From Paramacrobiotus metropolitanus (Eukaryota > Tardigrada > Eutardigrada > Parachela > Macrobiotidae), in assembly GCF_019649055.1 (NCBI RefSeq), contig NW_026570227.1:620001-684000 (forward strand): a stretch of DNA of 64,000 nt, in the 5' to 3' direction. The notes beneath the pieces were generated by a model. The model had not been told where the DNA came from and did no database searches. It saw nothing but the letters and a program-made list of their open reading frames with translations. Below are positions 27,573 through 51,443 of this stretch, piece after piece (within the stretch, counting starts at the first letter, position 1; each line of letters opens with the position of its first letter). Made by a program: the position numbers and the translations under genes.

Positions 27573-27900
27573 TGTGAGCCATGGCTGTACTCACGTCCAC
27601 CCTCACGCCTGTGGCGTTAAGCGGATGACGTGTCAGTGTTGTGTCTCCTCTGATTGGTTGTATGTGCCTTGTGTGGGCTCGCCTATGTGCGCTGCGAAGA
27701 GCGTTGATTTAGCTCTTCGCTTGGCAGATTTGCCAGTGTTCAGAGAGTTGAGTAGAGATTTGGTTTTTCACTCAATAAAGTGTGTCCATGCTAGCGGATG
27801 CCGTGCGTTGTGCATTTATCCCGTATCGATAGCATTTCACACAACGCAGAATCTTGTCAGTCTAGATCACTGTCCTGGACTCTTCCAGAGTACCACATTA
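27573..27900 (+). repeat. 5' LTR
   Basis: Starts TGTGAGCCATGG; the exact 3' end is ambiguous by two bases (27900-27902). Contains the polyadenylation signal AATAAA at 27774-27779, so transcripts would end in the R region shortly after. It differs from the 3' LTR at four sites (T/G near 27679, C/T near 27826, A/G near 27850, C/T near 27893). Ends CACATTA rather than the canonical CA. Confidence 0.93.
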
Positions 27901-27902
27901 TA

Positions 27903-27913
27903 TGGTAGCAGAG
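27903..27913 (+). promoter_or_regulatory. Primer binding site, initiator tRNA-Met type
   Basis: TGGTAGCAGAG begins two bases after the LTR. It is complementary to the 3' end (CTCTGCTACCA) of animal initiator tRNA-Met, 11 nt. This would prime minus-strand synthesis, as in Ty1 and Ty3. Confidence 0.85.
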
Positions 27914-27936
27914 CCCGTAATCTGCGGTGCTCGAGT

Positions 27937-28008
27937 TTAATCTGTTGGCGAACGGCCATATTAATCTGTTGGCGAACGGCCATATTGATCTGTTTGACGA
28001 ACGGCCAC
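27937..28008 (+). repeat. 24-bp repeat, three copies
   Basis: Three head-to-tail 24-bp units around CTGTTGGCGAACGGCCATAT; the first two are identical, the third has several changes. Lies just downstream of the PBS, in the leader. Confidence 0.85.
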
Positions 28009-29273
28009 GTGGAATCTGGATCGATCGATATTGATCGACTGCACCAGTAAGGCACTGGTTTTCCTCATCTGACAGCAAGGCGAATCTCATCGGATTGCCA
28101 GCAGGAGCGGCAACACTGAGTCAAGTATCTCCTGTGGAGAACTTGTCTCGTGTTTTCATCGAGTCAGACGGCAGCTGGCCGCGGTGCAGGTTTCTCCTGT
28201 GGAGAACTTGTGCTGTTTCCACTGCTAAGCAGCGAGATCCTCTGTAGAGGACAAGGCTGCTGGGCACAGGCGCCGAGAAGCCACAAGCTGGCAGCACCGA
28301 AGGAGGTGCAGGATCAGTTCTAACGCGCTCCACCAAAATAGGCTGTAGAGCGACCTGCTGGTAGGCTTGACAAGCCCAGCAGAAGGCTGAATAGGTCGGA
28401 TCAGGAAGGCGCCAAAACCGTGCGGAATACGGCTGCGCGGGATCGGATCGTGGAGAAGAAAATCGCGATCATCTGGATCACTTTGGCGGAAATCGGATCG
28501 GTAAAACAGGTAAAACCCGTTATTAATTATCGGATTGGTCAGCGCGTAAAAAGCGCAATTCTTATTGGTCCTGACTGAGCTGAGCTAGACGTAGGCGGAG
28601 ATTTTGCACACGGCGCGCAAGTCCGGCCGTCGATCTGTGACGTCACGTAGGTCAGAAAATTTAACGAGTTCACGTGATTGGTCAGTTATATGAGCTGTGA
28701 TTGGTCTAAAATTTTACCGGTAAAATTGAACTAAACGATCTCATAACGAGCTCCCAAGTATCTTAAACGAACTTTTATCAACATAATTGATCTAATACGA
28801 GCTGGTATGAGCTGTTTCTAACCGAAATAAGTTGAGTAAAAAGTTGACCAGTCGAACCTGAGATCGATCTCTGACCTTGAGCTGAGCTGATAATGACCTA
28901 CTCAGATGAGCTGAGATGATCTAATCCGATTTTTTAAATGATCTTTTTCATCGAAAACGAGCTGATTTCAATTGAATCGAGCTAATTTTAATCGAAACGA
29001 GCTGAGTAAAAGATGACATGAGCTGAGCTGAGATCGATCAGCTGATCTAAAACGAACTCGAAACGAACTTTTAGCAGCTCAGTTGATATCCGTAGCTGAT
29101 CATCAGCATCTCCGAAGTGAGCTTATCGAACTCTTTATTGAAAAAGTGATCTTTTAAAACGAATTTGAGCTTATCTAACGAGCTCAAAAGTGATCTATAG
29201 GGATCATAACGATCGTATTATAACGCGTGTGTGAGCATAACCGACAGGTGCGTCCAGTTATCCGATCATCACA
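28009..29273 (+). promoter_or_regulatory. Untranslated leader with repeated hairpins
   Basis: About 1.26 kb without a long frame. Near its start are three short hairpins: TCTCCTGTGGAGA at 28128-28140 and again at 28193-28205 (both followed by ACTTGT) and TCCTCTGTAGAGGA at 28238-28251. The rest is rich in AGCTGA, CGAGCT and GATC words, especially 28860-29130. The position between PBS and gag is where packaging and dimerisation signals lie in other retroelements; that role is inferred. Confidence 0.55.
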
Positions 29274-32200
29274 ATGGACAAAGAGATCATCGAACCAACA
29301 TCTAATAGCAGTCAGGGGAGCCGAGGCTCTCGCGGATCTCAGCAAGGCGCACCTAATCCGTACAAAAAGGATTTGAACTCATACACACGACCAGTCGCAC
29401 ATGAAAGGAGCACCCGGGCACCTAAAGCCTTTGAGAGGAAGGACTCTCGAGGTTCGGATGCGACCTACCAAAAGGCACTCGAAGCAGTGTCAGGTCAAGA
29501 GAGCTCCAGCGATGACCGGAAACGATCTCCCGCGTCTGCAGCGGGAAGCAACGAGGTGAACCAGCAGGTCATCAACGAAGGAACGAGCTCACAACGAGCA
29601 AAGGAGATGGATGTGACATCACAAAAGGATGTCAGGATCAGCCCCGTCATATCAGAGCAGGTCAAAGATTCTAATCTGACTAAACCGGACCTCGTCGAAC
29701 AGTCAAATGATGAAAAACTTGATGAGCAAAAACTCGGTGATGTCTCACTTGACGATGATGTCACAGTAGAGGATCTGTTTGAGAGCCCAATGCAGTATGA
29801 AGAGATGATGCGAAGTCACAAGTTCAGCAATGAAGAATCGTACCTCACCGATGACGATGTGACGATGAACATGTCATTTAGGACCGCGATGAAAGATGCC
29901 GTTCGAGCTGAAGGGGTGACAGCGTTCAGTGATATACCTGAACACCGAATCGAACGAACTCAGACAGGGAAGATCATCAATGTCCGGTCCCCATCTCCGA
30001 ACAGCCCCACCTCAAATCTGTGGAGGCAGATCAGGGAGTTACAAACGTCACTGGAAGGTAAAGAATGTCAACTCCTACAGAAGAAGCAGGAATATCAGAG
30101 GAGGATAAGCTCACTCGAAACTCATGTATACGAGATGGAGCAACAGCAGGGCATTCTGGAAAATGCGGCGACCGAATGGAAAATCAGATATGAACGTCAG
30201 AAGGAGATCGCCGAAGAAGCCCAGAAGGTGGCTGATGATAAAGAAGTGGAAAAGTTCATCGCGGTAGACGAGCTCAATGAGAGCATGTCCGAAGAGACAG
30301 CTGAGAAATCAAGACGTCTCGCCGAACTGAAAGATCAATGTGATGAGCTTCGCAAGAAGGCAAACGAAGCTGAGATCAAGCGGAATGAATATGCAAACAA
30401 GTTAGCTGAGGCCACACAAAGATTGGCAATGATGTCAACCGACATGTTGAAGCTCAGAAATGATCTGAAGCTGAAAGAGGAGAACATCGGCATCCTCCAA
30501 AAGGAATCACAAGCACATCAGAAACGAGCTGATGATGCACTCCAAGTGGCGAAGGAGCTCACGGAGCTCGGAGCTACCGAAGGAGAACGACTCAAGAATG
30601 AGATCAAAAAGGTCATCGAAGAGAATAATCAGCTCACTGAAGATGGAAAAAAAGCAGCTGAAGAGGGTCTGAAATGGCGACAACAAGCGCTCCGGCTGGA
30701 CACAATGGTCACAGCGCTCGAAATAGCGGAAAAAGAAAATCAACAAAAAGTTCATGAGCAGCTCGAAGAGAACATAAGGCTAAATACGGAGCTAACCGCA
30801 ATGGCGACTACGGCAATGTTGAGAGAAGATGAAGCCACGGAGGTGAGAAACCAGCTAATATCGGCAGGGCAGGCATACACCGAGCTGGAGCAGCAGGTAA
30901 ATCAGCTCGCCGAACGGATGATCACACTAAAAGATGAAACACACAAAGAGATGGATAATCGAACCATCAAACTTCAGAATGAGATGCTGAAGATCAAACA
31001 GGACAATGATCGATTGAGGAAAGAGAGAGATGAGCTCAACTTGAAGAACAGACGCCTCGAGGATGAGAATATCGCTCTCCAGGTGACAAATAAACACAAG
31101 GATGAGCAACTTTTGCAGTTCGGTGCTAAGAAAGATACCGACGTAACACCCCCGCCCAGTTACAGTAAGACACAAGGAACAGGAGCTGGCGGGAGTGCTC
31201 ACTTCGAGATGCCGCTACGAACGGGTGGCGGCAGAGGTGATTTCAAAACGGAAAAAGATGATGAAGTCGCCGATAAACGGAACCCATCGGGTAGTCACCA
31301 GCCACAGATGAGCTCTGGTGACCCATCGCAGTATCAACAGCCTATCGAAACAGCAATTAAAGAGGATGCAAATCGAGATGCCCGGTCCCCTCGACATGAA
31401 CACGACGGGAGATATTTCAGAGAGATCCCAAATGAACGAAACCAACGGAATGAGCGAAACGACCGAAACGAAGACCGTGTCCAAAGGGAATTCAATAGGA
31501 CGCTCAAAAACATGGGCCGAAAAACTGACCTGGCAATCTTTGATGGTAATCCTGATGCGGTGAATGGGTGGATTCGCATCGTAAAAGAAACACAACGAAC
31601 ATATGATCTGACCGATGAACAGATCATGATCGACATAGCCAGTGCCGTGAGAGGACCAGCCAAGATCTGGTTCGACAGTGAAAGAGACATCGAAGAGGCG
31701 GAAGAAGAAGTCTACACGGTCACAGAATGGCTAAATAAGTTCAAAGATGAGTACAGTGACCGCAACGAGGAAGTCCTGGGCTTTCGTGAGGCCATGGCTA
31801 GGAAATTTAAACCTGGAAAAGAAACACTGGAACAATTCTATCAGGCCATCATGAAATTTAAAGCGAAGAAAGCGATCACTGAATTGCAAGCGGTTGCATT
31901 CCTCATAGACGGATGCAGAGTGGATAACAACCTCTACAACGCCTTGAAAACGAAGGGGTTCAAGACGCCAGCGGAAATAAAGGCTTTTTTCAGATCGTGG
32001 GCAGCTGGTGAAGATAAATACAAAGTGGTGGAAGGTCAACGAAATCAACCGGATATCGTCACCATCCGCTCGGGCCAGGTTGAGATGGCACCGAGGCAAT
32101 ACGCAGCTGCACCAGTTCAACAAGTGGAATATCGGCCGAGATCACCAGTCCCGGTTCAGAATCAAGTGACTTTCAATGATAGTCAAACCGGACAACCTAT

Positions 32201-32513
32201 CACGTATGCCATGGTTGCTGCGATACAAGCGCAGGCACAGGCCAGACCGGTGGCGCCGGCTAACGTGATGCCGCACCCCCTGAACGTAGAGGCGCCACCT
32301 CAGCAAGGAAGGCCAAATAACGGAAATCAATATGGAAACGGAAACAATTGGAATAATGGTCAAGGTAATGGAAACGCCAACTTGAACAATGACCAGGGAA
32401 ATGGCAATTTTAATCAGAATCGGAAACAAGGGAACTACCAGCAGAACCGCGGCAACTATCAGCCACAGCAGGGTTCCCGAACTGAATGGAAATTCGGCCA
32501 AATTGATGGATAG
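29274..32513 (+). CDS. gag: Gag with long coiled coil
   Basis: 1079 residues from ATG 29274 to TAG 32511-32513. Residues 1-235 are charged and disordered. About 245-620 is one long Glu/Lys/Leu-rich coiled coil (for example LKDQCDELRKKANEAEIKRN). A disordered Pro/Asn/Arg-rich linker follows. About 745-930 matches the Ty3-type capsid fold (WIRIVKETQRTYDLTDEQ; AKIWFDS; LNKFKDEY; GKETLEQFYQAI). The C terminus is Gln/Asn/Gly-rich low complexity. Gag would assemble the virus-like particle around the RNA. At this length it is two to three times a usual Ty3 Gag because of the coiled coil. Uninterrupted in this copy. The zinc knuckle is missing from this frame and follows after the stop. Confidence 0.9.
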   Translation: MDKEIIEPTSNSSQGSRGSRGSQQGAPNPYKKDLNSYTRPVAHERSTRAPKAFERKDSRGSDATYQKALEAVSGQESSSDDRKRSPASAAGSNEVNQQVINEGTSSQRAKEMDVTSQKDVRISPVISEQVKDSNLTKPDLVEQSNDEKLDEQKLGDVSLDDDVTVEDLFESPMQYEEMMRSHKFSNEESYLTDDDVTMNMSFRTAMKDAVRAEGVTAFSDIPEHRIERTQTGKIINVRSPSPNSPTSNLWRQIRELQTSLEGKECQLLQKKQEYQRRISSLETHVYEMEQQQGILENAATEWKIRYERQKEIAEEAQKVADDKEVEKFIAVDELNESMSEETAEKSRRLAELKDQCDELRKKANEAEIKRNEYANKLAEATQRLAMMSTDMLKLRNDLKLKEENIGILQKESQAHQKRADDALQVAKELTELGATEGERLKNEIKKVIEENNQLTEDGKKAAEEGLKWRQQALRLDTMVTALEIAEKENQQKVHEQLEENIRLNTELTAMATTAMLREDEATEVRNQLISAGQAYTELEQQVNQLAERMITLKDETHKEMDNRTIKLQNEMLKIKQDNDRLRKERDELNLKNRRLEDENIALQVTNKHKDEQLLQFGAKKDTDVTPPPSYSKTQGTGAGGSAHFEMPLRTGGGRGDFKTEKDDEVADKRNPSGSHQPQMSSGDPSQYQQPIETAIKEDANRDARSPRHEHDGRYFREIPNERNQRNERNDRNEDRVQREFNRTLKNMGRKTDLAIFDGNPDAVNGWIRIVKETQRTYDLTDEQIMIDIASAVRGPAKIWFDSERDIEEAEEEVYTVTEWLNKFKDEYSDRNEEVLGFREAMARKFKPGKETLEQFYQAIMKFKAKKAITELQAVAFLIDGCRVDNNLYNALKTKGFKTPAEIKAFFRSWAAGEDKYKVVEGQRNQPDIVTIRSGQVEMAPRQYAAAPVQQVEYRPRSPVPVQNQVTFNDSQTGQPITYAMVAAIQAQAQARPVAPANVMPHPLNVEAPPQQGRPNNGNQYGNGNNWNNGQGNGNANLNNDQGNGNFNQNRKQGNYQQNRGNYQPQQGSRTEWKFGQIDG

Positions 32514-32966
32514 GTGAACCAAGGCGTGCAACTGTGCCAAAATTGTGGATTCGGTAACCACAATGCACAGAATTGCATGTTCGCCAACATGCCGTTGAAC
32601 CGGAACCCGAACTTGTTCGCCACCCAAGAGTGGGAACGACTCCGCAATCAAGGCGGTTGGCGACAGGCAGTAGCGAACGGCTACGACCTGGTTGCAGCTT
32701 GGCGCCAGTTCAAGCAGCAGAACGGCGGTAACCAAGGAGGTGGCCAGGGTGGCGGATATAACGGCGGCGGCAGAGGAGGCTTCCGCGGGCGAGGTCGCGG
32801 CAACGGACGCGGCAACTACGCCAACCGGAACTGGCGCGCCAACAATAACGGGGGTGGCGGCGACCAGAATAATGGCATCGGCGGCGCGAACGGCGCTGGC
32901 CAGGGGCAGCAAAACGAGCAAGCCCCGCAGCAGAATATGGATCAGGGAAACGGTCAAGATCAGTAG
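32514..32966 (+). CDS. Nucleocapsid segment with CCHC zinc knuckle
   Basis: The frame continues without interruption in the same phase after the Gag TAG and has no ATG near its start. Seven codons in comes CQNCGFGNHNAQNC (32535-32576), a textbook CX2CX4HX4C zinc knuckle that binds retroelement RNA. The remainder is Gly/Asn/Arg-rich with RGG-like repeats (GGRGGFRGRGRGNGRGN), also RNA-binding in character. It ends at TAG 32964-32966. Either the Gag stop is a nonsense mutation or this domain is made by stop-codon readthrough (context GGA TAG GTG). Confidence 0.85.
   Translation: MNQGVQLCQNCGFGNHNAQNCMFANMPLNRNPNLFATQEWERLRNQGGWRQAVANGYDLVAAWRQFKQQNGGNQGGGQGGGYNGGGRGGFRGRGRGNGRGNYANRNWRANNNGGGGDQNNGIGGANGAGQGQQNEQAPQQNMDQGNGQDQ
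32945..32951 (+). promoter_or_regulatory. GGGAAAC -1 ribosomal frameshift site
   Basis: The heptamer sits in the X XXY YYZ phase of the nucleocapsid frame (G GGA AAC), 12 nt before its TAG. A -1 shift here enters a frame that stays open to 33247 and reads a Pro-rich sequence (PPEPKPPDK) and then the 66-bp repeats. GGGAAAC is an established retroviral shift heptamer. Downstream RNA structure was not tested. Confidence 0.75.
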
Positions 32967-33022
32967 GCGCCGGTGAGCCTACTGATCCTCCCGAACCGAA
33001 ACCACCGGATAAAGGAGGAACG

Positions 33023-33335
33023 CAGAATCGGACTGCGAACGAGATGGCTAAAAAGACGCCATCCCAAGTGGGCAAAGGACCACAGCTGCAGAATCGGACT
33101 GCAGCCGACATGGCTCATAAGATGCCATTATCAGTGGGCAAAGTACCACAGCCGCAGAATCAGACTGCAGGCGATACGGCTAATAAGACGCCGTCACATC
33201 AGCTGAAGGAGATGGCTCAAAAGATGCCATCACAAGTGGGCAAATGACCACCACTGCAGAATCGGACTGCAAATGACATGGCTCAAAAGATGCCATCACA
33301 GGTGGGCAAGGACCACTGCCGCAGGACAGTACTGC
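33023..33335 (+). repeat. 66-bp coding tandem repeat, about 4.5 units
   Basis: Units start at 33023, 33089, 33155 and 33257, with a partial unit between and another near 33320. The consensus begins CAGAATCGGACTGC. In the shifted frame each unit reads QNRTA.(D/E)MA.K.PSQVGKGP-like peptide. Relative to the other units, the unit near 33245 has GGA changed to TGA (stop), and the one near 33307 lacks one A, which shifts the frame. Confidence 0.85.
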
Positions 33336-34533
33336 GAGCAACAAGGTGAACAATAAGGCGAGATCACCTTACTGCAGCGAAGAGAAGCTGAAAGAACGGC
33401 GAGCTCAACGTAACGAGATCATCCGAAAAGCTAACCTGAAAAAGAAAATGGAGGAAGAGAAAGAAACGGATGAGCATCGCTCGAGATTCCGACAACATGT
33501 TGAAGAGAACGGTATACCGAACCGACAGAAGTCACCACCTTCCGCACCAGTGAGAGATAAAGAAGCATGTGCAGTCGCTAAAAGCAACGACAAAAAGGTC
33601 GTCCCAACAGGTCAGGCAAAGGAACTGACGCTGCGAAAAGTGCAGCTAAAGGAAAGCGAACGAGCACAGCAGGTCTCCGATGACTCACTGGATGACGCAA
33701 ACGCATTGCAAGAGAAGCAGATGTGGCAAAAGGTGGCATATCGACCCAATGGGAATCATGGGATGTGGATACCGGTTACACCAAAAGCGAAACTGAAAGG
33801 GCAAATGTCGCAAGAAGATTACTGGCACATCAAACAAATACAAACGGACGCTGCGAGGATACAACTCGAGGAGTTGGTTACCGGGAAACCAGCTCCAGGG
33901 TCAAAGAAGCCAGTTCCAGTGTATAAGAAGACACCCGCCGACTTTTGCAACCCGAGTAATGCACCACCGGTAGATAAGCCGCCGAATTACGGAGAAAAAG
34001 TTCCGTTACAAAAGTTGCCAAACGGCGGATTTACCATAAAGAAGAAAGAGAAGCCACGGGACTTCTTACAAGCTCTACAGGATGACGCCAACAGGTCACC
34101 AGCCAGAACAGATGGGATGTCCTCGCAAATTTACCCAACTCGAACGAATAACGAATGGGCAAAGAAGATAACTGACTGGATGAAGGACAACGAGCACAAG
34201 ATGATCATTTATGAGAGATCAGCAGAAGAGTTGAAAGATAGCGAAGAAGATGAGCTGACACTGGCTGAGCAGATCACAAGAGAAGTCATCGAGAAGCTGC
34301 GTGAGACATCGAAAGATGATGCGAAAGGCACCAAGTTATATCAAACCATCACTGAGGTGACAAAAAGTCACCAGGAAGTTGCGAAGGGGCAACTAAACGA
34401 GGTCAAAAGGACAACCAGTGATATAAAAGCTGCATCGAAAAATGAATGTGAGGTGTTAAAAGGCTTAAAAGAGATGAAAAAAGAGAATTTTACGATATCC
34501 GAACTGACTTGCCACATCGTATCGACCATTTGA
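33277..34533 (+). CDS. Gag-Pro linker region, Lys/Glu-rich
   Basis: A frame of about 400 residues following the repeats, highly charged (KLKERRAQRNEIIRKANLKKKMEEEKE) with a Pro-rich centre. It has helical stretches near the C terminus but no known domain. It is the natural continuation of the repeat-encoded frame once the 1-nt loss near 33308 is allowed for. It overlaps the protease frame at 34452-34533. Two near-consensus shift words (GTTAAAA at 34455-34461, CTTAAAA at 34464-34470) and an A6 run lie in the overlap, so the step to the protease frame could be programmed or a lesion. Confidence 0.6.
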   Translation, partial: HGSKDAITGGQGPLPQDSTASNKVNNKARSPYCSEEKLKERRAQRNEIIRKANLKKKMEEEKETDEHRSRFRQHVEENGIPNRQKSPPSAPVRDKEACAVAKSNDKKVVPTGQAKELTLRKVQLKESERAQQVSDDSLDDANALQEKQMWQKVAYRPNGNHGMWIPVTPKAKLKGQMSQEDYWHIKQIQTDAARIQLEELVTGKPAPGSKKPVPVYKKTPADFCNPSNAPPVDKPPNYGEKVPLQKLPNGGFTIKKKEKPRDFLQALQDDANRSPARTDGMSSQIYPTRTNNEWAKKITDWMKDNEHKMIIYERSAEELKDSEEDELTLAEQITREVIEKLRETSKDDAKGTKLYQTITEVTKSHQEVAKGQLNEVKRTTSDIKAASKNECEVLKGLKEMKKENFTISELTCHIVSTI

Positions 34534-36581
34534 GCTCAATACTGAAGAACAAAAGCACTTATGCGAATGGGCAGGTGCTCTCTCCGACGGCAGACATGGA
34601 TCCGGGACCAGTATCACTGATACCAGTCAAATGTACGGTCCGGAAGCTGAAAGTTCAAAATGGGAACTTACCGAAAAGGATCGAAGCGTATACACATGAG
34701 GTCAAAATCGGAGATATAAAAGTGATGGCGATGTTGAATACTGGAGCAGAGACATCGTTGATCAGTAAACCGTTCTGTGAGAAAAATGGTCTCCACATGG
34801 TACCGCTGCCACCAGATAAGTTGGTGAAGATAAATGGGATCAGCGGCACATCGGGCTTCGTCGTCACACACTACTGTGTGGCACCTGTAACACTAAGAAA
34901 ACGAACTACAGAACACTCCTTCTATGTGCGACCAAAGACGGATGACGTACAAGTCTTACTGGGACATGATTTCCTGGCGACAAAGTTCGTCCTAATCGAT
35001 AATCACGGAGAGGAGGAAGTCGAAGATGAACCGAAGCCAACTGCCAAAGTTCAAGCTGGAAAAGTCGCTGAACTCGCAAAAGGAGCAGTAAAAGCTGAAG
35101 CGGAGCAAAGGGCTATCCCAGTACCAGAGGCACTGGGATCAAAAGAGATGAACATAAAAAGGGGAGGTTCATCTGCCCAGCTGTCGATAGTTGAACGGAT
35201 GACAGCTATCCAGCGGGAGATCTCTACCAGGTTGGGGAGATCATCAGTTAAACCGACAGAACGGGCAAACGTCGTTATCCCAGTACCAGAGGCACGGGAA
35301 ACGACGAAAGATGATCGAAAAGGAGCTGGTCAAGGAGCTATCCCAGTACCAGAGGCACTGGGAACACAAGATGAAACTCCCGCAACATTGGACCAGATCG
35401 TAGCTACCCAAAAGGAAGCAGCTATCGAAGCGAAACGAGCTCTCGTACCCGGCATGGAATGGGCGAAGCTTATCCCAGTACCAGAGGCACTGGGAATAAA
35501 AGCTATCAAAGTTTGGAACGATATAAAGTTCGAAAAAGTACGAGAAGTTCCGAAAAAGATGACAGAAGCTGAGCAAATACTCACAAGTGAGATCCGAGAT
35601 AAAGCGATCGAACAGCTGAAAATTCATCAGGACAAAAAGGAACCGGAGATCATCGAAATCTCATCTGATGAGCTCAATGTGAAACCGAGATATGGAGGCT
35701 GGCTCAACGCAGATAACGACAGCACCAATCCGTTTGCTTGCCTCAACTTCATGACTCTGGAAGAACGTATCAGCAGTTGTCATCACGGGTATAATGAGGA
35801 CCCGTGCATAGTGCAACCTCAACAGGAATGTAAGGAATGCTTACTAGAAGCTCATCAAGATGATCCCTCTGAATGGCCAAAGTGCAATGCGGCAATCGAA
35901 GACATGAAAGGGCATGTCCAAAAGGAAGTGAAAAGTATAAACCGGACAAATCCGATGTGGAATCAGCACATCGAGCGATACCATTGGCAACGATACAAAG
36001 AATGGCTATCATGTGTCCGAAACTTCATCGAAACAAGAGGGAAATGGATACGTCACTGGGAAGATTGTTCCGACCAGCAGCAGTTGGACTCCCCAGAGGC
36101 TAAACGATATCAAGCAAAGTTTTACAGAGAGATACATGAGATATTTGATGAAGGAAAATTGTGGGAAGACGTGAGATGTGAGCTGTTCTGGGACTTCCGC
36201 ACCAACCGCTTGTACAAAGATAAAGGAAAGACGGTCATATTCCCCACTGGACTTGGTGAACCGGTGTACGAGCTATTTGAAAAGTTCCATGACGCACTGG
36301 TGAAGGGAGATGAGGGATCCTTCGACAAGTACTGGAAAAAGTTGGAAGCAGAGTTCCCACCCCCACCAGATAACGACATACTTGAGCTGAAAGTATATCG
36401 GAAACGAAGAGAAATCGGAGCAACTGGTCTTCCACAGAAGAAGGTGACTTTCGCATCAGCACCAGATGAAGCTGATTTCTCTCAACGAGGAGATGATAAA
36501 TGGTGCATCTACGAGATGACCCCGAATAACGAGCTGCTCACCGATAACTTGAAGGCGAATATGCGTCTTCATTGGGGCTAA
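34452..36581 (+). CDS. Aspartic protease region, motif altered to NTGA
   Basis: The frame opens at 34452. About 34600-35010 is a retropepsin domain: IKVMAMLNTGAETSLIS at the active site, then a flap region and VLLGHDFLA (the family's LLG.D/N.L element). The catalytic residue normally Asp (DTGA/DSGA) is Asn, codon AAT at 34737-34739. The protease would cut the Gag-Pol polyprotein. The remaining 500 residues are a linker with four IPVPEA(L/R) repeats and a conserved Trp/Cys-rich part (SSCHHGYNEDPCIVQPQQECKEC region, about 35770-35850). A stop at 36579-36581 follows a GGGG run where the next frame takes over. Confidence 0.8.
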   Translation, partial: GVKRLKRDEKREFYDIRTDLPHRIDHLSSILKNKSTYANGQVLSPTADMDPGPVSLIPVKCTVRKLKVQNGNLPKRIEAYTHEVKIGDIKVMAMLNTGAETSLISKPFCEKNGLHMVPLPPDKLVKINGISGTSGFVVTHYCVAPVTLRKRTTEHSFYVRPKTDDVQVLLGHDFLATKFVLIDNHGEEEVEDEPKPTAKVQAGKVAELAKGAVKAEAEQRAIPVPEALGSKEMNIKRGGSSAQLSIVERMTAIQREISTRLGRSSVKPTERANVVIPVPEARETTKDDRKGAGQGAIPVPEALGTQDETPATLDQIVATQKEAAIEAKRALVPGMEWAKLIPVPEALGIKAIKVWNDIKFEKVREVPKKMTEAEQILTSEIRDKAIEQLKIHQDKKEPEIIEISSDELNVKPRYGGWLNADNDSTNPFACLNFMTLEERISSCHHGYNEDPCIVQPQQECKECLLEAHQDDPSEWPKCNAAIEDMKGHVQKEVKSINRTNPMWNQHIERYHWQRYKEWLSCVRNFIETRGKWIRHWEDCSDQQQLDSPEAKRYQAKFYREIHEIFDEGKLWEDVRCELFWDFRTNRLYKDKGKTVIFPTGLGEPVYELFEKFHDALVKGDEGSFDKYWKKLEAEFPPPPDNDILELKVYRKRREIGATGLPQKKVTFASAPDEADFSQRGDDKWCIYEMTPNNELLTDNLKANMRLHWG
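35116..35495 (+). repeat. Four IPVPEALG repeats forming hairpins
   Basis: A 23-nt coding word occurs at 35116-35138, 35278-35299, 35341-35363 and 35473-35495. Three copies have perfectly paired ends (TCCCAGT with ACTGGGA, 9-nt loop); the second is imperfect. Each encodes IPVPEA(L/R). The sequence between copies is unrelated. Confidence 0.85.
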
Positions 36582-36612
36582 AAGACCCATCGGATATGAG
36601 GAAGATGCTGAT

Positions 36613-40548: not shown

Positions 40549-40558
40549 CTTTCGCTGA

Positions 40559-41407: not shown

Positions 41408-41647
41408 AAGGTGAAAAAGAAGAAGTCACGACCCACTCCCACGGAAATCCTCACAAGCAAAGAAGAAGAGGAAGACGCCGCCGAAAAAGAACTCTTTGAT
41501 CGGATAACTAAAGGACGCAGGGATATTAACCCAAAAATAAGGCTTATGGGCGTTTATGATATTATGAACGGGAGTTGGGAAGGCGTAAAAGTCATTCGGC
41601 GAAAACCGGCTAACAGATATCGTTTTCATTGTTCTAACAGGTATTAA
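41408..41647 (+). CDS. In-frame Lys/Glu-rich continuation
   Basis: An 80-codon stretch in the same frame between TGA 41405 and TAA 41645, starting KVKKKKSRPTPTEI and ending in a folded-looking part (IRLMGVYDIMNGSWEGVKVI). The next frame (41654) is also in this phase, so the two stops may be nonsense changes inside one longer protein. Confidence 0.5.
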   Translation, partial: KVKKKKSRPTPTEILTSKEEEEDAAEKELFDRITKGRRDINPKIRLMGVYDIMNGSWEGVKVIRRKPANRYRFHCSNRY

Positions 41648-43369: not shown

Positions 43370-44167
43370 AAATACGAACCAGGAGATCCCATCTTGCGCA
43401 GATAAGGGAAATAAAGAGTTGAAGAAAATGATCAATACGGCATCACGGGAGCAGGCAGAAGCGGCCTTAGCAGCTATCCCGAATGAGGTGGATCGCAGAA
43501 ATCCCCGAATTCTCATCCGAATGATGAAAGAGCTGATAGCGAAAAAGGCGAAAGAAGAGGACGCCTGGATTCATATACGGGTGGGCACGAACGAGGACCA
43601 CATGTTATATACCTACACAGCCGAAGGGCAGATATTGGCGGTCGAAAGAAAAACGTTAAAACTAGAAGAAGAAGATACAGGCGGGAAGAGAAAACGACAA
43701 CCCGATTACGACACAGTGTACCTGTATACTGAGCCAGTCTGCAGACTGCTTACGATCGGATACGAATACGCAGCTGATGTACCAGGAATAGCGATAGTGG
43801 AAATTGTCGATCCCTTATCGGGAGATCCGATCCCCTTCGCACCGATGTGCATATCGAAGGAAGACAGAGAACATGCTGACAAGGAATCAAGAAAAGCCCT
43901 CAAAGTACTATACAAAATGTTACCACCCGAGGTGAAGAATAACGCGGTAGCATTGACGGCAGCGGTGCTTAGTCTGGTGCAACAGCGCGCGGAGGCGGAT
44001 CAGGCTTTCATTCGATTGACATTTAACCACGATGATGGAACGCTCCGAACTGCCTGTTATGATCACCGAAAAACACCGCTGTACTGGGATATTACACCTC
44101 CGGAACATATAAAAAAGCTGCAAATGAACAGCTTGCCAAACAGCAGCAAGCTCAAGCCCAGGCTTAG
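43320..44167 (+). CDS. Accessory protein with a duplicated domain
   Basis: The frame overlaps the preceding one by 50 nt. Two related units of about 70 residues follow each other: about residues 40-110 (AIPNEV...ILIRMMKELIAKKAKEEDAWIHIRV) and about 195-265 (MLPPEVKNNAVALTAAVLSLVQQRAEADQAFIRLTF), sharing P.EV, a helix, a (K/R)AE.D(A/Q)(W/F)I(H/R) turn and a strand ending in Tyr. A beta-rich part (VYLYTEPVCRLLTIGYEY) lies between them. Past an A6 run at about 44109 the sensible reading leaves this frame and reaches a TAG at 44165. No known family. Confidence 0.6.
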
Positions 44168-45176
44168 CTCGCGGCACAGGAAGGTCCTGCCGGAGAAGCT
44201 GATGAGGAAATGGAAGATGACGGAGCTCCCGAAGCAGGAGATGATGATCCGGAAGACGAAGAAGAGAACCGGAGTCGGAAGAGGAACAGGTTGATGAGGA
44301 TAACCCTAAACGATCGCTGGCTAGAGTTTTCGAGATCGTCAAAGGAGCGGTACATAAGCCGTGTAAAGATGTGAATTGTCCTCATTGTTTCCCATCTCGA
44401 AATTCAGACGACTCTGAAGAAGATGACGGATCATCTGACGAAGATTCGGAAGATGAAAAGCCGAAGACAAGATCGTCCAAAACGGATACAAAGCCCAAGA
44501 AAGCTGAAAAACCTGGGCAGAAATCGGGTACAAGTTCGAAGGAAGAATTAAAACCAAGAAAGAAAAGGGGGAAACTCAACAGAAGAAAAGGGGACACAAA
44601 AAGGAGGAGTCCTCACCGGATGTTGATGTCGAAATTGATTATGAAGATGTGGTCGTTACAGATGATAGCCCATCAACGGTCACAACACCGAAGAAAATTG
44701 TCATTGAATCAGCGACATCAACCGCGTTTAAGTCGAAACCAATTGCATTGAAGAAAGTATTCCCGCTCGGACAAATCATGTCAGCATCGACTCAGAAAGA
44801 GCGCAAGGAGAAAGCTGAAACTGATAAGAAGAAACGCGAATCATCTCGCGAGTCGACGGCATTATCTGAAGCAAGTAGCCGCCCAAGCACATCGACAATC
44901 ATGTCAAAATCAGTCTCGGTAGGACGAACTACACGAGGCAAAACGGCTGAACCGAAGGTGGCGCCGAGCTTGGAGTCGACATTGGAAAAACAGAAACAGC
45001 TGGCCTTAGAAAAACAAAAGAAAGGAGGGAAGAAGAGTGGTGAAAAGAAATCAAAACCTCCAGCGGTCCGGAGAATTGACGCCCCTGGCATGGCAGGATA
45101 CGCCAGAATTCTAGGCGACAGTGAACTCGAATATTCGGAACCAGAAAACTCTGAGCCATTTCCCGAGTTTGATTAA
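44168..45176 (+). CDS. Acidic and Lys-rich region, frames broken
   Basis: The protein-like reading passes through three phases: acidic (EADEEMEDDGAPEAGDDDPED) to about 44265; then a second frame with CKDVNCPHC (a possible zinc-binding half site, about 44365-44392), DDGSSDEDSEDE and basic KKAEKPGQKSG blocks; then from about 44590 a third frame to TAA 45174-45176, with Ser/Lys-rich sequence. Alternating acidic and basic disordered blocks resemble chromatin or histone-chaperone tails. The phase changes fall in purine runs and look like small indels. Confidence 0.5.
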
Positions 45177-46412
45177 CCAGACGGCGAAGATCTAACGGAA
45201 GATGATATGATCGAAATCACTAAGAAAATAGTGAATAGGATGCGTACCAGGGATACATCGATCACATTAAAATTCCGCAGGGAAGCGAAGGAAAAGATGG
45301 AGGCACGAGGTCACTCCTTCACAGCTCGAAAGTTTTATACGCTGGTGGAATATGCCATGAATGTCGGGAAATTGACGAAAAAACATCTCGAATGGAAACT
45401 GGGAGCGAAGTTGGTCAGAACGGGAGGAATCGATAAACAGCTGTTCGATCAACATGCTGATAAAAGGAGACAGATCGAGTTAGCTATAGCCGGAATGCGC
45501 AGCCCCATCGGCTCGACTCGACACCGTATTACGCAGTATATTAACGGCTTATGGCATGGTGGAAACGGTAATTTTGCAGAACTTGAAGCGGGAAATGCTA
45601 CAACGCTAACAAAGATGATTAAAGAAGGAAAAGTCATTACCACCAACGCCCATATGGGATCTCCAATTAGATACACCTCGTTTGGACTAATACCGGTGGA
45701 AATCGAGAATCAGAACCATTACTCCGAAAGTGACGATTCGACGCTGCTTGATGTTAAAAAGCGAGATGACCCGGCTACACCTATACTAAATGTTCTCCAT
45801 CGAAAGGGAGATCAATTGAGAGCAGCGGAAGCGAAACTTGCAGCAGACAGGTCCAAAAAGAAGCCGTTAGAGGACAGAGGTATCATGGATGCCGACTCTG
45901 AAACGGATGATGAAGATGATGATTTAGCAGCAGCTCCCGCAAAGCCGGTAGAGAAAACTACGACAACTCGAGTAGAGGATGAGCGGAAGGTCGTTCTCCC
46001 TACCGATAAATTGGTACAACAGGCTGAAGCTGAACTTGCCGCCATGCGGGAAAGACGAAAGACGTCGGGACTTGCGCTACCTAAGACCAGTGGGGCTGAA
46101 GTAGCAAGCCAAAAGACGACAAAGCGGACTCGACACCCTCCCAGAGCAACGAACCGAAATCGACAAAGTCATCAACAAGCTCGATGGCGAAACTCACCAT
46201 CGACGAGAAAGCATCCGGAACTGTCCCTATTGACTCAGCGGAAAGTTCAGACACCGGAGCGAAATCCGAAGACCGAGAATATATGCTCGGAATACCGTTG
46301 GACAACGCCAATCAAATCTGGTGCGAACTTAAACGTTTCCTGGGAAGTCAACAAAACCAGACAATGGGCCACAGGGAGCTCAAATCGGCTATGTGCACCA
46401 ATAAAGCTCTGA
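45177..46412 (+). CDS. H15-like winged-helix protein, part 1
   Basis: Same frame as the preceding segment, after TAA 45174; the first ATG is at 45207. Two globular regions precede a disordered tail. Residues 20-85 (HSFTARKFYTLVEYAMNVGKLTKKHLEW) are helical. About 90-155 resembles the globular domain of linker histones: RRQIELAIAGM (helix 1), GSTRHRITQYI against the GSSRQSIQKYI type helix 2, then L.KMIKEGKVITT and the wing G.PIRYTSF. Linker histones bind nucleosomal DNA. The tail is Ala/Lys/Glu-rich. The last 70 residues (from about 46184) are out of phase with the next frame and probably not real. Confidence 0.6.
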   Translation, partial: PDGEDLTEDDMIEITKKIVNRMRTRDTSITLKFRREAKEKMEARGHSFTARKFYTLVEYAMNVGKLTKKHLEWKLGAKLVRTGGIDKQLFDQHADKRRQIELAIAGMRSPIGSTRHRITQYINGLWHGGNGNFAELEAGNATTLTKMIKEGKVITTNAHMGSPIRYTSFGLIPVEIENQNHYSESDDSTLLDVKKRDDPATPILNVLHRKGDQLRAAEAKLAADRSKKKPLEDRGIMDADSETDDEDDDLAAAPAKPVEKTTTTRVEDERKVVLPTDKLVQQAEAELAAMRERRKTSGLALPKTSGAEVASQKTTKRTRHPPRATNRNRQSHQQARWRNSPSTRKHPELSLLTQRKVQTPERNPKTENICSEYRWTTPIKSGANLNVSWEVNKTRQWATGSSNRLCAPIKL

Positions 46413-46996
46413 AATTATCGGGAAACAGTTTTGACCGGATGACTAAACGAGCCTATAAAGAAGGGAAATTAGGCTTTAGTTATACGGAGACGAATAAATG
46501 GGTATATTATCTACCACCTCCAACACGCACTCCCCGACTAAAGATGGATCTGAAGTTTTGGAAGATCGCTATGACCGACGCGGCGATACCAAGACTCGGC
46601 GGAACTCACGGAGTGACATGGGATGACCTGTCGAACTTTTTCGCCGTCAACTACGAAGTAGGCGAATTTAGCATCGAAAAAGATCGAGAGTGGATCAAGA
46701 AGGCAGTTGAGAGCCTGGTCGATGAAAATATACTGGAGATAAAAGATGACAGAATTCACCCAAAACCGGAAGATTTGTCAGATGATACACCACAAATTGG
46801 AGAAGCTGTTCAAGAAATAACTTCGGAAAAAGTTGATTCTACTCCGCAGGAGCTGCCACCAACTGAGACGAAAGCAGCTGAACCTGATCCGAAGTCAACG
46901 GCAACTAACCCGAACGAATCGAAAACTGATGAAATTGAACTGAAGTCAACTGAGACTGTGTCAGCTGCTCCAGCTGACACATCGCAAAAAGAATAG
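46184..46996 (+). CDS. H15-like winged-helix protein, part 2
   Basis: Continues in another phase. About residues 38-110 form a second winged-helix-like unit (QIWCELKRFLGSQ, MGHRELKSAM, FDRMTKRAYKEGKLGFS, wing ending KWVYYLP). About 118-190 may be a third (KFWKIAMTDAAIP, VTWDDLSNFF, WIKKAVESLVDENILEI). The C-terminal 80 residues are acidic and Thr/Pro/Glu-rich. The helix-helix-(K/E)-G/N-wing order is that of H15/H1-type domains, but sequence identity is low and the call rests on pattern. Ends TAG 46994-46996; a further frame continues. Confidence 0.5.
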   Translation: MAKLTIDEKASGTVPIDSAESSDTGAKSEDREYMLGIPLDNANQIWCELKRFLGSQQNQTMGHRELKSAMCTNKALKLSGNSFDRMTKRAYKEGKLGFSYTETNKWVYYLPPPTRTPRLKMDLKFWKIAMTDAAIPRLGGTHGVTWDDLSNFFAVNYEVGEFSIEKDREWIKKAVESLVDENILEIKDDRIHPKPEDLSDDTPQIGEAVQEITSEKVDSTPQELPPTETKAAEPDPKSTATNPNESKTDEIELKSTETVSAAPADTSQKE

Positions 46997-47138
46997 CGAT
47001 TGAGAGATGTGTGATATGCGGTCAGGAAGGTCCACCGTATGTCACAGCAAAACATCATCAGTTCAGATTAAAAGAAGGCGATATGGCAGTGATTGAAGTT
47101 AAAACCGGAAAATTTAGCGAAAGTGCTAAACAGATGTG
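46997..47138 (+). CDS. Short Cys/His module after the H15-like part
   Basis: Open in the next phase for about 47 codons: CVICGQEGPPYVTAKHHQF, then a charged strand/helix segment, ending TGA 47136-47138. CVIC...HH could bind zinc. It probably ends the long pol-derived frame. Confidence 0.45.
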
Positions 47139-47378
47139 AAACGAGATGTGAAAAGTCAACAGATTAGGCGAATGAGCTTAAGACTTGGCAGGCATAAGAA
47201 GTGCGTTATGAGCTAGGAAGGTCTCAGCTCAGTGCAGGAATAGCCTAAAAATAGGCGTAAAATGATAAGAAGGACTTCATGGGATAGCGATGAGATGATG
47301 AGATGTAAATTGACATGTTCTGATTACAGATTAAAGTGGAAAAATGGCTCAAAAAAGTCAAGCCAACCGGAAAGTTAG
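47139..47378 (+). other. Stop-rich gap between the two coding blocks
   Basis: About 240 bp with stops in all three forward frames, unlike the rest of the element's coding part. It ends near a splice-acceptor-like TTCTGATTACAG (47321-47332), followed by an ATG at 47344 (12 codons) and the ATG at 47379. A spliced or internal-promoter transcript for the last protein is plausible. Confidence 0.4.
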
Positions 47379-49538
47379 ATGACGAAACAGATCCAAGCCA
47401 GATCGACTCAAGCAAGATCGACAGCTCAACCAGCACCTCTGGCCGTGAGTAGCCAAGCAGCACCTTCGCCGGCAAGACATCAGGCAGTACCGGCACCCTC
47501 AACGAGTCAGGTGACACCTGCGATGACACCAGCGCAACGTCTTATCGATTCGGAAATTGATCGGTTTACGGGCTTTAATCCTAAGTGTCCGGACTGTATC
47601 CGAAATAACAAGGCTGTTAATGGGAAATTTCCATGTTGGAATTGCTTAATGCTGCTACCACCAGCTGAACGAAGTCTTGTGGCATATACGGAAGCCGCAC
47701 GGGGCAATAAAGACGTGTTCCGAAACGTCATCTACGCCGATAATTGGCAGCATGTTCCACCGAAAGAGAAGATGTTAATCGAAGATCGTTACCGACAAGC
47801 TATTCAGAAAAGCGAAATTGGTTGGGACGCGACTTTGGAACCTCCACAAGATGATACATGTGACGCATATCGAAGAAAGTTCGATGCGGACATGGAACAG
47901 ATGATGCGAGACAAGCGGCGTCAAGAGTTGGAAGCTGAAGCTATAGCCAGCCGCAAACGTGCAGAGGAACAAATCGCGCATGAGCATCGAGCAAAGTTGG
48001 CACAAAAAGGAAAGGAGCCAATAACCGTCTCTAAATTGAACGAAGATGAGGCATGTGCCAGGGTTCAATCGTTAACAATACAGATTGATGCGCTGATAAA
48101 GAACCCCCTGGACATTCGAAAAAACTTATTTGAAGCTCTTCTGCGGGAGAAGCTCAGGTTAGAAAGAGGTGAAGCACCGAAACCGGAGACGCAGATGCTA
48201 ATCGAAAAGATGACTGAAGAAGCTCGCAAGGCACGTCAACGAGAGTCTGAGGCGATGAAAGCGTTTCAGAGCTTTAAACGAGATGACGGGTTTAGACGAC
48301 CTCAATCACCTGCCAGACGAAGCGAAAGATCACGCGAATATTCACGAGAGAGGAATTATGACTCCCGAAATGAGAGATCACGGGAATACTCTCGTGAACG
48401 AACTCGGGACTATCATAAGGAACGAGATGATAGACCTCGTGAACGATCTCGTGATCGAGATTACCGTGGCCCGAGAGGATGGGAGCGTCACGGAGATGAA
48501 GTGGTCGAAGTCGGAACTCGACGTAAACCAGCTCTGGATAATATAGAGCGACGACCGGAACCACGACGATCGGAACCTGAACAGGAAAGACGTCAGGAAC
48601 CGATGGGATGTGCGTTTGTTCATCAAAAAGTCAGGGGATTCACGCCTGAACGATCTCGAGATCAGAGAAGAGAGCGTAGAAATCGAAGTCCCGACCCACA
48701 TGACAAGATGTGGCAGGAAGATGTGGCATTCTTCAATACATTCGAGTTGCCGACTAAACGATCTTCCAGTGGAGAGCGGGAAAACAGTCCACCGAAGTAC
48801 ACTCGAATGCAGTCAACAGTTCACGGGGTGGATCCGTTAATTGTGACATTACCGGGAGACGAACCGATGGACACATCGATACCACAAGATAACGTTGTCC
48901 ATAAAAGACAGGTGCTTCTCGACAGTGATCTTCAGCCGTCGACATCGGCGAGTAAGGCACCGCCGCGACGTGAGCAAGACGTCCGTCACATAATCGAAGA
49001 AAGGCGACAACAAGATAATCGACGAGAACCGGAACCGCGACATGAACCAGAAAGTCGTCGCGAAATGAATAAACCGTCCCGGTTTAATAACCCGCAGAGA
49101 CGTCCACAGTTCATCCGTAAGACGTTCAATATGGACGACCTGGAAGATCAAAGAGCTGAAATATGTCGTTACTTGGGACTGGACATCGAATCGGAACAGT
49201 CAGGAATCATCTTGACTCAGTTGCAGCACCTGCGACAGTTCCTTATTGACTCGAACTATGCGGAAGAAATTCGAGAGAGCAGACTTGGGCGATTGGAGAT
49301 CACCACCGAAGAGGCGAATGCGTATTATACATCGATCAGACAGTGTGGTCTGCCAAGTCTGTTGGACTTGAATCTACTGGGAGTTCCGTTGGATACCGTC
49401 GATACCACGGGATGGACCCAAATCCGAATACCAAGAGATAAAAGAGCGACGAGAATACGTGGCGCAATTTGTGTTACGACATGTGAATCCGGCATTCAAA
49501 GTGCTGGCAGCGAGAGCAGCGATCGGCCTGGTAGTTGA
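47379..49538 (+). CDS. RS-rich accessory protein with CxxC zinc module
   Basis: Separate ATG right after a TAG in the same frame. Residues 1-65 are Ala/Gln/Pro-rich. CPDCIRNNKAVNGKFPCWNC (about 71-90) is a C2...C2 zinc-binding arrangement. A long Lys/Glu helical region (about 150-305) precedes an RS/RE-rich tract (about 310-400: RSREYSRERNYDSRNERSRE and more), as in SR-type splicing factors. A second Arg-rich stretch and a helical C-terminal domain with FNMDDLEDQRAEICRYLGL follow. RS tracts mediate RNA-processing and nuclear-speckle contacts, so nuclear RNA handling is likely. The last 25-30 residues lie past a phase change; the reading continues at 49459. Confidence 0.65.
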   Translation: MTKQIQARSTQARSTAQPAPLAVSSQAAPSPARHQAVPAPSTSQVTPAMTPAQRLIDSEIDRFTGFNPKCPDCIRNNKAVNGKFPCWNCLMLLPPAERSLVAYTEAARGNKDVFRNVIYADNWQHVPPKEKMLIEDRYRQAIQKSEIGWDATLEPPQDDTCDAYRRKFDADMEQMMRDKRRQELEAEAIASRKRAEEQIAHEHRAKLAQKGKEPITVSKLNEDEACARVQSLTIQIDALIKNPLDIRKNLFEALLREKLRLERGEAPKPETQMLIEKMTEEARKARQRESEAMKAFQSFKRDDGFRRPQSPARRSERSREYSRERNYDSRNERSREYSRERTRDYHKERDDRPRERSRDRDYRGPRGWERHGDEVVEVGTRRKPALDNIERRPEPRRSEPEQERRQEPMGCAFVHQKVRGFTPERSRDQRRERRNRSPDPHDKMWQEDVAFFNTFELPTKRSSSGERENSPPKYTRMQSTVHGVDPLIVTLPGDEPMDTSIPQDNVVHKRQVLLDSDLQPSTSASKAPPRREQDVRHIIEERRQQDNRREPEPRHEPESRREMNKPSRFNNPQRRPQFIRKTFNMDDLEDQRAEICRYLGLDIESEQSGIILTQLQHLRQFLIDSNYAEEIRESRLGRLEITTEEANAYYTSIRQCGLPSLLDLNLLGVPLDTVDTTGWTQIRIPRDKRATRIRGAICVTTCESGIQSAGSESSDRPGS

Positions 49539-50259
49539 TCCTACCAGCCATGACGCAAGAACGTGGGGTCAGAAGATCTTTGCTGCACGATTGGCACATT
49601 ACTCATCGATCAGCCAATTGAGCTCGGACATGCCGAAGAATAAAGTCCCGCTCGTATTCCGGGATAAAGCTGCCAAAATGGGATCAGCCGCTAAACATCA
49701 GGCAATAGCCAAGAAAGCGGATGATGATCTGAAGAGTGTTACGGGCAGACTGGAATATGATAATCTTCGGACGATTTTCGACTCTCATTATCAGGAGATG
49801 CTCGACCGAATCCGTTATACGATGGACACCCATTATGTGGAACCAAAAGATCATGTCCATAAATACATCAAGGAGCATCTCAGAGGACATCGATCCCAAA
49901 ATACGGCACCTCCTCAAGCCCCTAACGCACCCGGCAAACGAGCTGCCAGGAATCAGCAGATCCGCGATCATTACGAGGATGTCAGACAACGGTTGGCCGA
50001 TGATCCTCGTAACCGGGACTTGCAGCTTGAGGAAGATGACGCCCGTCATCTACTTGAGGCGATCAAGCGAAGTCGCCAAGTAAAAGGACGTGGACCACGC
50101 CATGTCGCCGTCCGGATTGCACAAGCAGAGCAGGATGCAGAAGTCGCACCAGCGGAACCGGCAGACCGAACTTCTGACCGAAATCAGCCAGCCTCAACTC
50201 GAAAACGTCAGCCGCGAGATGGTGGCGACGGAGATGAGTCGAACGAGATGATGGAATAA
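49459..50259 (+). CDS. C-terminal part of the RS-rich protein
   Basis: The frame is open upstream of its first ATG (REYVAQFVLRHVNP), and the switch from the previous frame fits near an A4 run at about 49440. It has a helical domain (NPAFKVLAARAAIGLVVDP ... IRYTMDTHYVEPKDHVHKYI), then Arg/Glu/Asp-rich helices and a polar end (GGDGDESNEMME). No domain recognised and no membrane segment. Last coding sequence of the element; TAA at 50257-50259. Confidence 0.6.
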   Translation: MAQFVLRHVNPAFKVLAARAAIGLVVDPTSHDARTWGQKIFAARLAHYSSISQLSSDMPKNKVPLVFRDKAAKMGSAAKHQAIAKKADDDLKSVTGRLEYDNLRTIFDSHYQEMLDRIRYTMDTHYVEPKDHVHKYIKEHLRGHRSQNTAPPQAPNAPGKRAARNQQIRDHYEDVRQRLADDPRNRDLQLEEDDARHLLEAIKRSRQVKGRGPRHVAVRIAQAEQDAEVAPAEPADRTSDRNQPASTRKRQPRDGGDGDESNEMME

Positions 50260-51109
50260 CGTAAATGATTGAAAAGGAGTTGCTACGGCTTAAAGTCGGC
50301 TCTGTTGCAGTTCATCAACTCAGCTCATCTTAAAGTGTGAGAAATCTACGGTAATTAGCCGGATCTTTAAACGGAGTTGCTACGGTATAACTTGCCGGCT
50401 CTCTGTAACAAGGTTGAGATGTGCGACAGATGAACTTTACCAGGGAGGCAAGCTGAAATGAGCTTGAAAGTCGATATCAAAACGACTGAAGTACCTCCAT
50501 GACCAGGATGAAGATGAATTATTACGATGTCGCACATCCGAAATCATCTAAAAGATGATCTCACCAGGGAGGAAGCGAACTTCGCTTGTCTACATGACGT
50601 CCCTCCATGACCAATACGGATCTCATCTGACCGAAGTCGTACAATAGATACGCAAATATTCCAAAGATGAAGCAGTATTCATAAGTCGTACGATGATACG
50701 CACCTGATCCTCAAGCGGATCTGATGTGATGAAAGTCGCACTATAAAAGCAAGGTGCTCAAGCGGAGCGGCGTTGCTCAATGGAGCGGAATTGGACCAAA
50801 AAGTTCCTAACGGTGGACAGGATACCTGTGACCAGATGAGTGGAGGATCCTAGTCTACGGATTTGATTAATACTTCTGTTGATCTGTTCATAACTGTTGA
50901 TGTTATAGTATTTTTGATACAGATCTCTTTATTTTCACATCGTGGAATGGAAATTGTCTATGTATAGACTAGATGTGATAAATGGACTAAAAGAGATGAT
51001 GTTTTTATTAGCATTTTTATGAGCACACACAGGCCGTCCGCCAAACGATCGGATTCGACACGGAGATGGATGCAGCCTCGAACGGAGCTCGGCATCCCTC
51101 CCAGAGGCA
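50260..51109 (+). promoter_or_regulatory. 3' untranslated region with repeated RNA modules
   Basis: 850 bp without a coding frame. It contains GGAGTTGCTACGG twice (50276, 50373); two modules bounded by ACCAGGGAGG and CCTCCATGACC (50439-50507 and 50563-50613); an inverted pair GATGTGCGACA/TGTCGCACATC (50418-50428, 50527-50537); and AGTCGTAC..ATACGCA twice (near 50635 and 50684). TATAAAAG occurs at 50742-50749. No polypurine tract adjoins the 3' LTR. RNA export, packaging or plus-strand priming roles are possible but not shown. Confidence 0.55.
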
Positions 51110-51437
51110 TGTGAGCCATGGCTGTACTCACGTCCACCCTCACGCCTGTGGCGTTAAGCGGATGACGTGTCAGTGTTGTGTCTCCTCTGATTGGTTGTAT
51201 GTGCCTTGTGTGGGCGCGCCTATGTGCGCTGCGAAGAGCGTTGATTTAGCTCTTCGCTTGGCAGATTTGCCAGTGTTCAGAGAGTTGAGTAGAGATTTGG
51301 TTTTTCACTCAATAAAGTGTGTCCATGCTAGCGGATGCCGTGCGTTGTGCATTTATCCCGTATTGATAGCATTTCACACAACGCAGGATCTTGTCAGTCT
51401 AGATCACTGTCCTGGACTCTTCCAGAGTATCACATTA
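51110..51437 (+). repeat. 3' LTR
   Basis: Direct copy of the 5' LTR with four visible substitutions and no indel; AATAAA at 51311-51316. It is followed by the target duplication TACAGT (51438-51443), which abuts the displaced flank. Confidence 0.93.
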
Positions 51438-51443
51438 TACAGT

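Follow-up and report, generated by a model that had tools for sequence, protein, structure and literature searches.

A giant Ty3-type retroelement family with two long proteins encoded downstream of integrase in the tardigrade Paramacrobiotus metropolitanus

To our knowledge, the giant Ty3 elements described so far are Burro and Ogre. According to the available part of one source (PMC6431247), few long terminal repeat (LTR) elements have more than 20 kb of internal sequence; Burro of planarians is gypsy-like, exceeds 30 kb with its LTRs, is present in many copies and has as its ORF1 a polyprotein of 4,873 aa that includes BIR, ankyrin, MATH, BCL2-like and Env-like regions, while in Ogre of plants LTRs of 1.9-6.5 kb account for much of the size. 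Cer1 of C. elegans produces the accessory protein CERV from a spliced mRNA, cerv exons 1-3 sharing the gag frame (PMC10309623, in part), and the MDG1-group of Drosophila consists of envelope-less LTR elements in which sORF2 is a short transmembrane protein (PMC11952523, in part). Here we analysed a stretch of 64,000 nucleotides from Paramacrobiotus metropolitanus (contig NW_026570227.1, positions 620,001 to 684,000, forward strand; hereafter the window), in which a sequence-only reading had proposed a giant Ty3-type retroelement with extra coding sequence. That observation is confirmed and its interpretation supported: with a probability of roughly 0.93, the element appears to be a decayed copy of a recently active, autonomous giant Ty3 family coding for four proteins, namely Gag, Pol, ORF3 and ORF4.

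The whole element occupies positions 27573-51439, one base beyond the end (51438) first assigned to it; all its features lie on the plus strand, apart from the strandless target duplications. The 5' LTR (27573-27902, TG...TTATA) and the 3' LTR (51110-51439) are 330 bp each and show 4 mismatches, and the target-site duplication CAGT lies on the left (27569-27572) and on the right (51440-51443). A 4-bp duplication was readable by eye in all six copies aligned in full. The primer-binding-site-like sequence TGGTAGCAGAGC (27903-27914) abuts the 5' LTR and is identical in 7/7 aligned copies. It may be initiator-Met-like; the initiator-tRNA pattern had 0 matches, and the general 3'-end pattern had 4 vs 2 in the reversed control. 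The LTRs and target duplication of the sequence-only reading were borne out. The coding strand is A-rich, with an AT skew of 0.12-0.45 per kb across 29-51 kb, the accessory block included; the skew falls to -0.05 in the kilobase after 51 kb, and some host windows get to 0.13.

The gag gene (29274-32963), interrupted by a stop in the window copy, encodes a capsid-like part (31527-31991), whose motif we presume to be Ty3-like, and a CCHC knuckle (CX2CX4HX4C, 32535-32576). Because no Pfam gag model matched the window frames, Gag was called from gene order, the knuckle and the capsid motif. The pol gene (33277-41404), also interrupted, carries protease (PR, 34728-34976), reverse transcriptase (RT, 37810-38304), RNase H (38685-39065) and integrase (39789-40302). 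PR, RT, RNase H and the integrase zinc domain exceed their Pfam cut-offs in this order, and the integrase core, which a frame change divides in the window copy, lies just below its own (29.2 vs 32.6 bits). The closest match of window pol is an annotated P. metropolitanus protein (88%). A nematode host had been considered and was given up once pol and ORF4 matches indicated a tardigrade; SL1 RNA and the TTR-52 family had produced no match, but neither had their controls, so that this negative carries no weight. A spacer at 37300-37548 is presumably dUTPase-like, and the tail contains what we take to be an AT-hook (41054-41092); the motif RGRPRK is found in the window, in copies C44, C97 and C103 and in the annotated proteins P0003 and P0004, the tail of C73 has RGRQKK, and P0001 has no AT-hook motif. 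The AT-hook had been noticed before but attributed to the accessory block, whereas it belongs to the Pol tail. In other copies Gag is about 1,230 aa long (1,236 in C74, similar in C44, where it was read across a piece border), and Pol reads through without interruption in C44 (2,828 aa) and in C97 (2,982 aa). Integrase ends near 40.9 kb and, as had been claimed, coding continues past it, with open frames, separated by gaps, reaching 50,256.

Paired LTRs with a short target duplication, the domain order, the RT and the CCHC Gag place the element in Ty3/Metaviridae. The named non-host proteins among the best 120 of 4,388 matches of the pol search include Ty3-G and Ty3-I Gag-Pol proteins. In an RT tree of 49 rows (of 121 usable, C167 being too short, and with no other-superfamily outgroup), the window, C97, C44, P0001, P0003 and P0004 formed one clade (100/100) on a long branch, with a weakly supported sister group (80/89). 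Like Burro, as far as the available part of PMC6431247 describes it, this is an animal gypsy-like element with an internal region of more than 20 kb, much extra coding and many copies. Unlike Burro, it has LTRs of 330 bp and two extra ORFs after integrase, and none of the Burro ORF1 domains was found by Pfam in 17 frame pieces of the window, Env likeness being looked at by hydropathy only. It is also unlike Ogre, its LTRs being short and its size coding. The family differs from both, as the gene content had first suggested, in combining short LTRs with two post-integrase proteins that do not carry Burro's named domains. Among the literature matches listed, with subscription journals mostly outside the search, we found no giant Ty3 element of a tardigrade, no linker-histone domain in an LTR element and no paper combining 'Paramacrobiotus' and 'retrotransposon'; a tardigrade repeat curation deals with two other species and, in the available part, does not use the word Paramacrobiotus (PMC11071193).

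We next turn to the other copies, which the sequence-only reading had proposed to seek with the LTR and the accessory ORFs. An LTR search of the genome gave 38 matches, including 10 same-strand pairs, picked by hand, that are spaced 18.6-24.7 kb apart. The ORF3 marker domain (query, window 43305-44291) lies within nine of these ten pairs, and ORF4 also within nine, the exception being C95:346927-365695. The pair C7:729777-748375 is without the ORF3 marker, but since gag, pol, the ORF3 end and ORF4 are retained, it represents an internal deletion. Two wider pairs, on C179 (34.7 kb) and C95 (38.6 kb), were left out; the C179 pair was rejected as a family element, only a short ORF3 fragment being found in the 19.8 of 34.7 kb looked at. 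All four genes are open in C44, with Gag again crossing the piece border; Pol, ORF3 and ORF4 are open in C97, where gag is divided over two frames; ORF3 and ORF4 are open in C167; and several genes are interrupted in C74, C204 and C58. In the window copy all four are interrupted, to which assembly errors may contribute. Gaps aside, the two LTRs differ at 0 positions in C44, C97, C74 and C58, at 1 in C204 and at 4 in the window (for C167 only the last 130 bp were alignable); the insertions are therefore recent. As lower bounds for the genome, we counted at least 122 rows of the ORF3 domain (a few loci giving two), of which 22 fall in stop-free frames at least 1,600 aa long; at least 63 of ORF4 (62 of 602 candidates scored), of which 32 fall in stop-free frames at least 900 aa long; and at least 147 of RT (147 of 1,512 candidates scored).

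At unsaturated dS, Nei-Gojobori dN/dS ranged over 0.07-0.12 in gag, 0.09-0.24 in pol, 0.12-0.22 in ORF3 and 0.11-0.16 in ORF4; a single ORF3 comparison between distant copies, near saturation, gave 0.31. ORF3 and ORF4 are under purifying selection, with ratios about as low as those of gag and pol, and gene order is unchanged in divergent copies. Because LTR pairs recur at similar spacing and the accessory ORFs are conserved under purifying selection, the element is not a chance arrangement. C58 and C74 have identical LTRs despite their interrupted frames, which could reflect mobilisation in trans, copying errors or misassembly.

ORF3 (41654-46993) and ORF4 (47344-50256) are both interrupted in the window copy and are open at 1,782 and 964 aa in C44 and at 1,780 and 966 aa in C97. 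The Gly/Pro-rich part, apparently duplicated domain, predicted winged helices and RS-rich stretch listed in the sequence-only reading are all present, though in these better-preserved copies they belong to two proteins, not to many small ones. In ORF3, the Gly/Pro-rich part (41837-42394) is followed by an apparently duplicated domain (43353-43661 and 43737-44111), modelled as alpha/beta with a fold matching nothing known, a Cys motif (44362-44388), a possible winged helix of low model confidence (45471-45695) and two predicted winged helices (46304-46519 and 46538-46756). The last domain is predicted to adopt a winged-helix fold like the globular domain of linker histones, so that the H15-like label given to these helices held at the level of prediction; it did not at the level of Pfam, where the linker histone model PF00538 gave 14.6 bits in C97, under the gathering cut-off of 22.4, and at most 21.2 bits in other members of the family in a genome scan. 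Pfam returned nothing consistent on the duplicated domain or on the first, doubtful winged helix, and the Foldseek listing for ORF3 contained no match at E <= 0.001. Sequence searches against solved structures gave nothing convincing. A search of ORF3 residues 490-1680 against 5.8 billion proteins found 0 matches at E <= 0.001 among 7,994 scored, but this search is weak because only similar-length proteins are candidates and even host models were missed. ORF4 combines a paired-Cys domain (47586-47855) with invariant CX2C pairs, a helical N-terminal domain modelled confidently, a disordered middle with an RS-rich stretch (48330-48470) and a C-terminal part that is conserved yet modelled with low confidence. 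Its structure search found no known fold, and the 12 matches among 7,996 scored in its protein search all came from P. metropolitanus. Four relatives (P0126, P0127, P0128 and P0130) are treated by RefSeq as genes of the host, under the names 'RNA-binding protein 25-like' and 'fray2-like'.

How might these proteins be expressed? A candidate splice donor, ACAG|GTAAAA, is predicted in the leader (28506-28515, GT at 28510), and the donor-like CAG|GTAAAA is present in 7/7 aligned leaders. Candidate 3' splice sites stand upstream of ORF3 (TTTTCATTGTTCTAACAG, 41623-41640) and of ORF4 (CTGATTACAG, 47320-47329). An acceptor-like sequence ending in AG occurs within some 35 bases upstream of the ORF3 ATG in 8/8 copies (C74 is not among them), and one precedes the ORF4 ATG in 10 of 11, nine recognised by script (a TTACAG-, TTTCAG- or TTCAG-like motif) and the other two judged by reading (C73 yes, C167 no). 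In addition, the RefSeq gene model P0124, which is an annotation and not reads, links the ORF3 end to ORF4 precisely at the predicted acceptor. From these sites, Gag and Pol would probably be translated from unspliced genomic RNA, and ORF3 and ORF4 from spliced mRNAs joining the leader donor to the acceptor before each ATG.

The roles proposed for the two proteins draw on resemblance of fold, on composition and on an analogy with CERV as described in part of PMC10309623. ORF3 may be a nuclear DNA- or chromatin-binding protein, whose winged helices, together with the AT-hook tail of integrase, would coat or compact the very long cDNA and/or anchor it to chromatin ahead of integration, a proposal to which we give slightly less than even odds. 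An unlikely alternative is that ORF3 mimics a linker histone not on the element's own cDNA but on host chromatin at integrated copies, countering silencing. The linker-histone-like winged helix would suit this, and so would the pace of ORF3 evolution: between families the protein sequence of ORF3 changes far more rapidly than that of pol (identity 41% vs 85% for C97-C103 and 26% vs 74% for C97-C73; dN for C97-C103 0.57 vs 0.10), as in host conflict, synonymous sites being saturated in both genes. This divergence may, however, reflect long disordered linkers. Recombination was rejected as its general cause, since only C167 has a pol clearly younger than its ORF3 and ORF4; the synonymous sites of pol are saturated too for C97-C103 and C97-C73. 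C167:28500-53000 itself is apparently mosaic (pol dS 0.89 to C97, ORF3 and ORF4 saturated), which suggests template switching between families.

For ORF4 we propose, more tentatively than for ORF3, that its paired-cysteine domain and RS-rich stretch might bind genomic RNA and assist the unspliced 24-kb transcript in evading splicing and exiting the nucleus, as CERV does for Cer1. Like Cer1, this would be a Ty3-type element with an accessory protein from a spliced mRNA, CERV being the proposed analogue of ORF4 (PMC10309623, in part); unlike cerv, ORF4 lies after pol. It is improbable that ORF3 and ORF4 are instead additional structural proteins in an exceptionally large particle packing the 24-kb genome: the apparently duplicated alpha/beta domain, the Gly/Pro-rich part and the very large Gag would fit such a particle, but winged helices and an RS stretch indicate nucleic acid and nuclear roles. 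Taken as a whole, an autonomous four-protein family with spliced ORF3 and ORF4, a chromatin role for ORF3 and an RNA role for ORF4 is the explanation that we favour, with odds somewhat better than even.

The position of both ORFs downstream of pol, their likely spliced expression and the high divergence of ORF3 relative to pol would also be expected of transmission or entry factors replacing an envelope, for which sORF2 of the MDG1-group offers a comparison. As in that group, envelope-less with accessory ORFs in the accessible part of PMC11952523, no envelope-like protein was seen here: by hydropathy, one Gag, one Pol, two ORF3 and four ORF4 proteins had no strong hydrophobic segment of a membrane-anchored envelope, in agreement with what had been noted at first. 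Unlike sORF2, however, ORF3 and ORF4 are long and highly charged, and no 19-residue segment with a mean hydropathy of at least 1.6 was found in two ORF3 and four ORF4 proteins; the three small transmembrane-like ORFs in the scan vary among copies and are located in the LTR, leader or flank, so that an entry role is very improbable. That the accessory block is a passenger made up of host genes taken in by the element or of nested insertions, an outcome that would have refuted the initial proposal, can practically be dismissed, for although the host linker histone at C33 (104.9 bits against PF00538) could be a distant origin for one domain, the block evolves under about the same constraint as gag and pol and keeps its order in divergent copies, no second terminal-repeat pair was found inside the element and Pfam gave no host-gene match for the accessory frames of the window.

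The genome scan with PF00538 (E <= 1) returned 55 rows: the plain host H1 at C33, seven others above cut-off and 47 below; among 14 control genomes only E. coli matched, under cut-off. The ORFs at these seven loci are closely related, and in the six tested (all but L049) the whole winged-helix ORFs scored 33.0-41.3 bits. They point to a second Ty3 lineage: at L053 (on C13) an integrase-like frame is followed by a winged-helix ORF and a Cys-rich ORF, and L051 (on C296) has the same order with a shorter integrase-like frame. The L053 frame scored 22.3 bits against the integrase core, under the cut-off of 32.6, and matches window-family integrases at about 42% identity (E near 1e-62). By script, 40 of the 55 rows have on the same strand upstream a Ty3 integrase (within 9 kb), an RT (14 kb) or a window-family ORF3 (5 kb), where about 0.1 would be expected by chance near 75 integrase places by our own arithmetic; among the 15 other rows, three (two of them on C112 and the third on C63) have the lineage's Cys-rich ORF, read by hand, directly downstream. 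The domain resembles linker histones H1/H5 by predicted fold in ORF3 and by Pfam significance in the second lineage; unlike in host H1, that of ORF3 is set in a long retroelement protein with no long lysine/alanine-rich tail. Between the lineages, the case for homology of ORF3 is suggestive at most, and homology of the second lineage's Cys-rich ORF with ORF4 is not supported by hhalign (E 0.22, probability 0.3%). It is conceivable, if doubtful, that a clade of Ty3 elements took up a linker-histone fold long ago and has kept it in a post-integrase protein devoted to packaging or chromatinising the element's own giant cDNA, in which case most linker-histone-like domains of this tardigrade genome would be retroelemental, not host.

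A family with over 20 kb of internal sequence, two large unknown proteins kept by selection and some LTRs still identical, all in an animal genome of only 170 Mb, offers a way to test how a retroelement copes with 24-kb RNA and DNA and how a mobile element uses a histone-like fold. It also carries a warning, as genes of the element are listed in RefSeq as ordinary host genes.

Several smaller features were noted. A 24-bp tandem repeat shortly past the primer site (27937-28007), whose number differs among copies, is possibly, as a guess, an RNA packaging or dimer signal. The 25 bases preceding the 3' LTR (51085-51109) are identical in 6/6 fully aligned copies, yet not polypurine. At the start of pol (33021-33309) lies a tandem 66/102-bp repeat, apparently in greater number in C97, and between protease and RT (35099-35503) an IPVPEALG/ARE-like peptide is repeated four times; we guess that these peptides are possibly protease cleavage sites. 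Outside the element, fragments on the minus strand at 4372-6176 weakly resemble DUF3987 (E about 0.002, under cut-off) and are perhaps an old mobile element.
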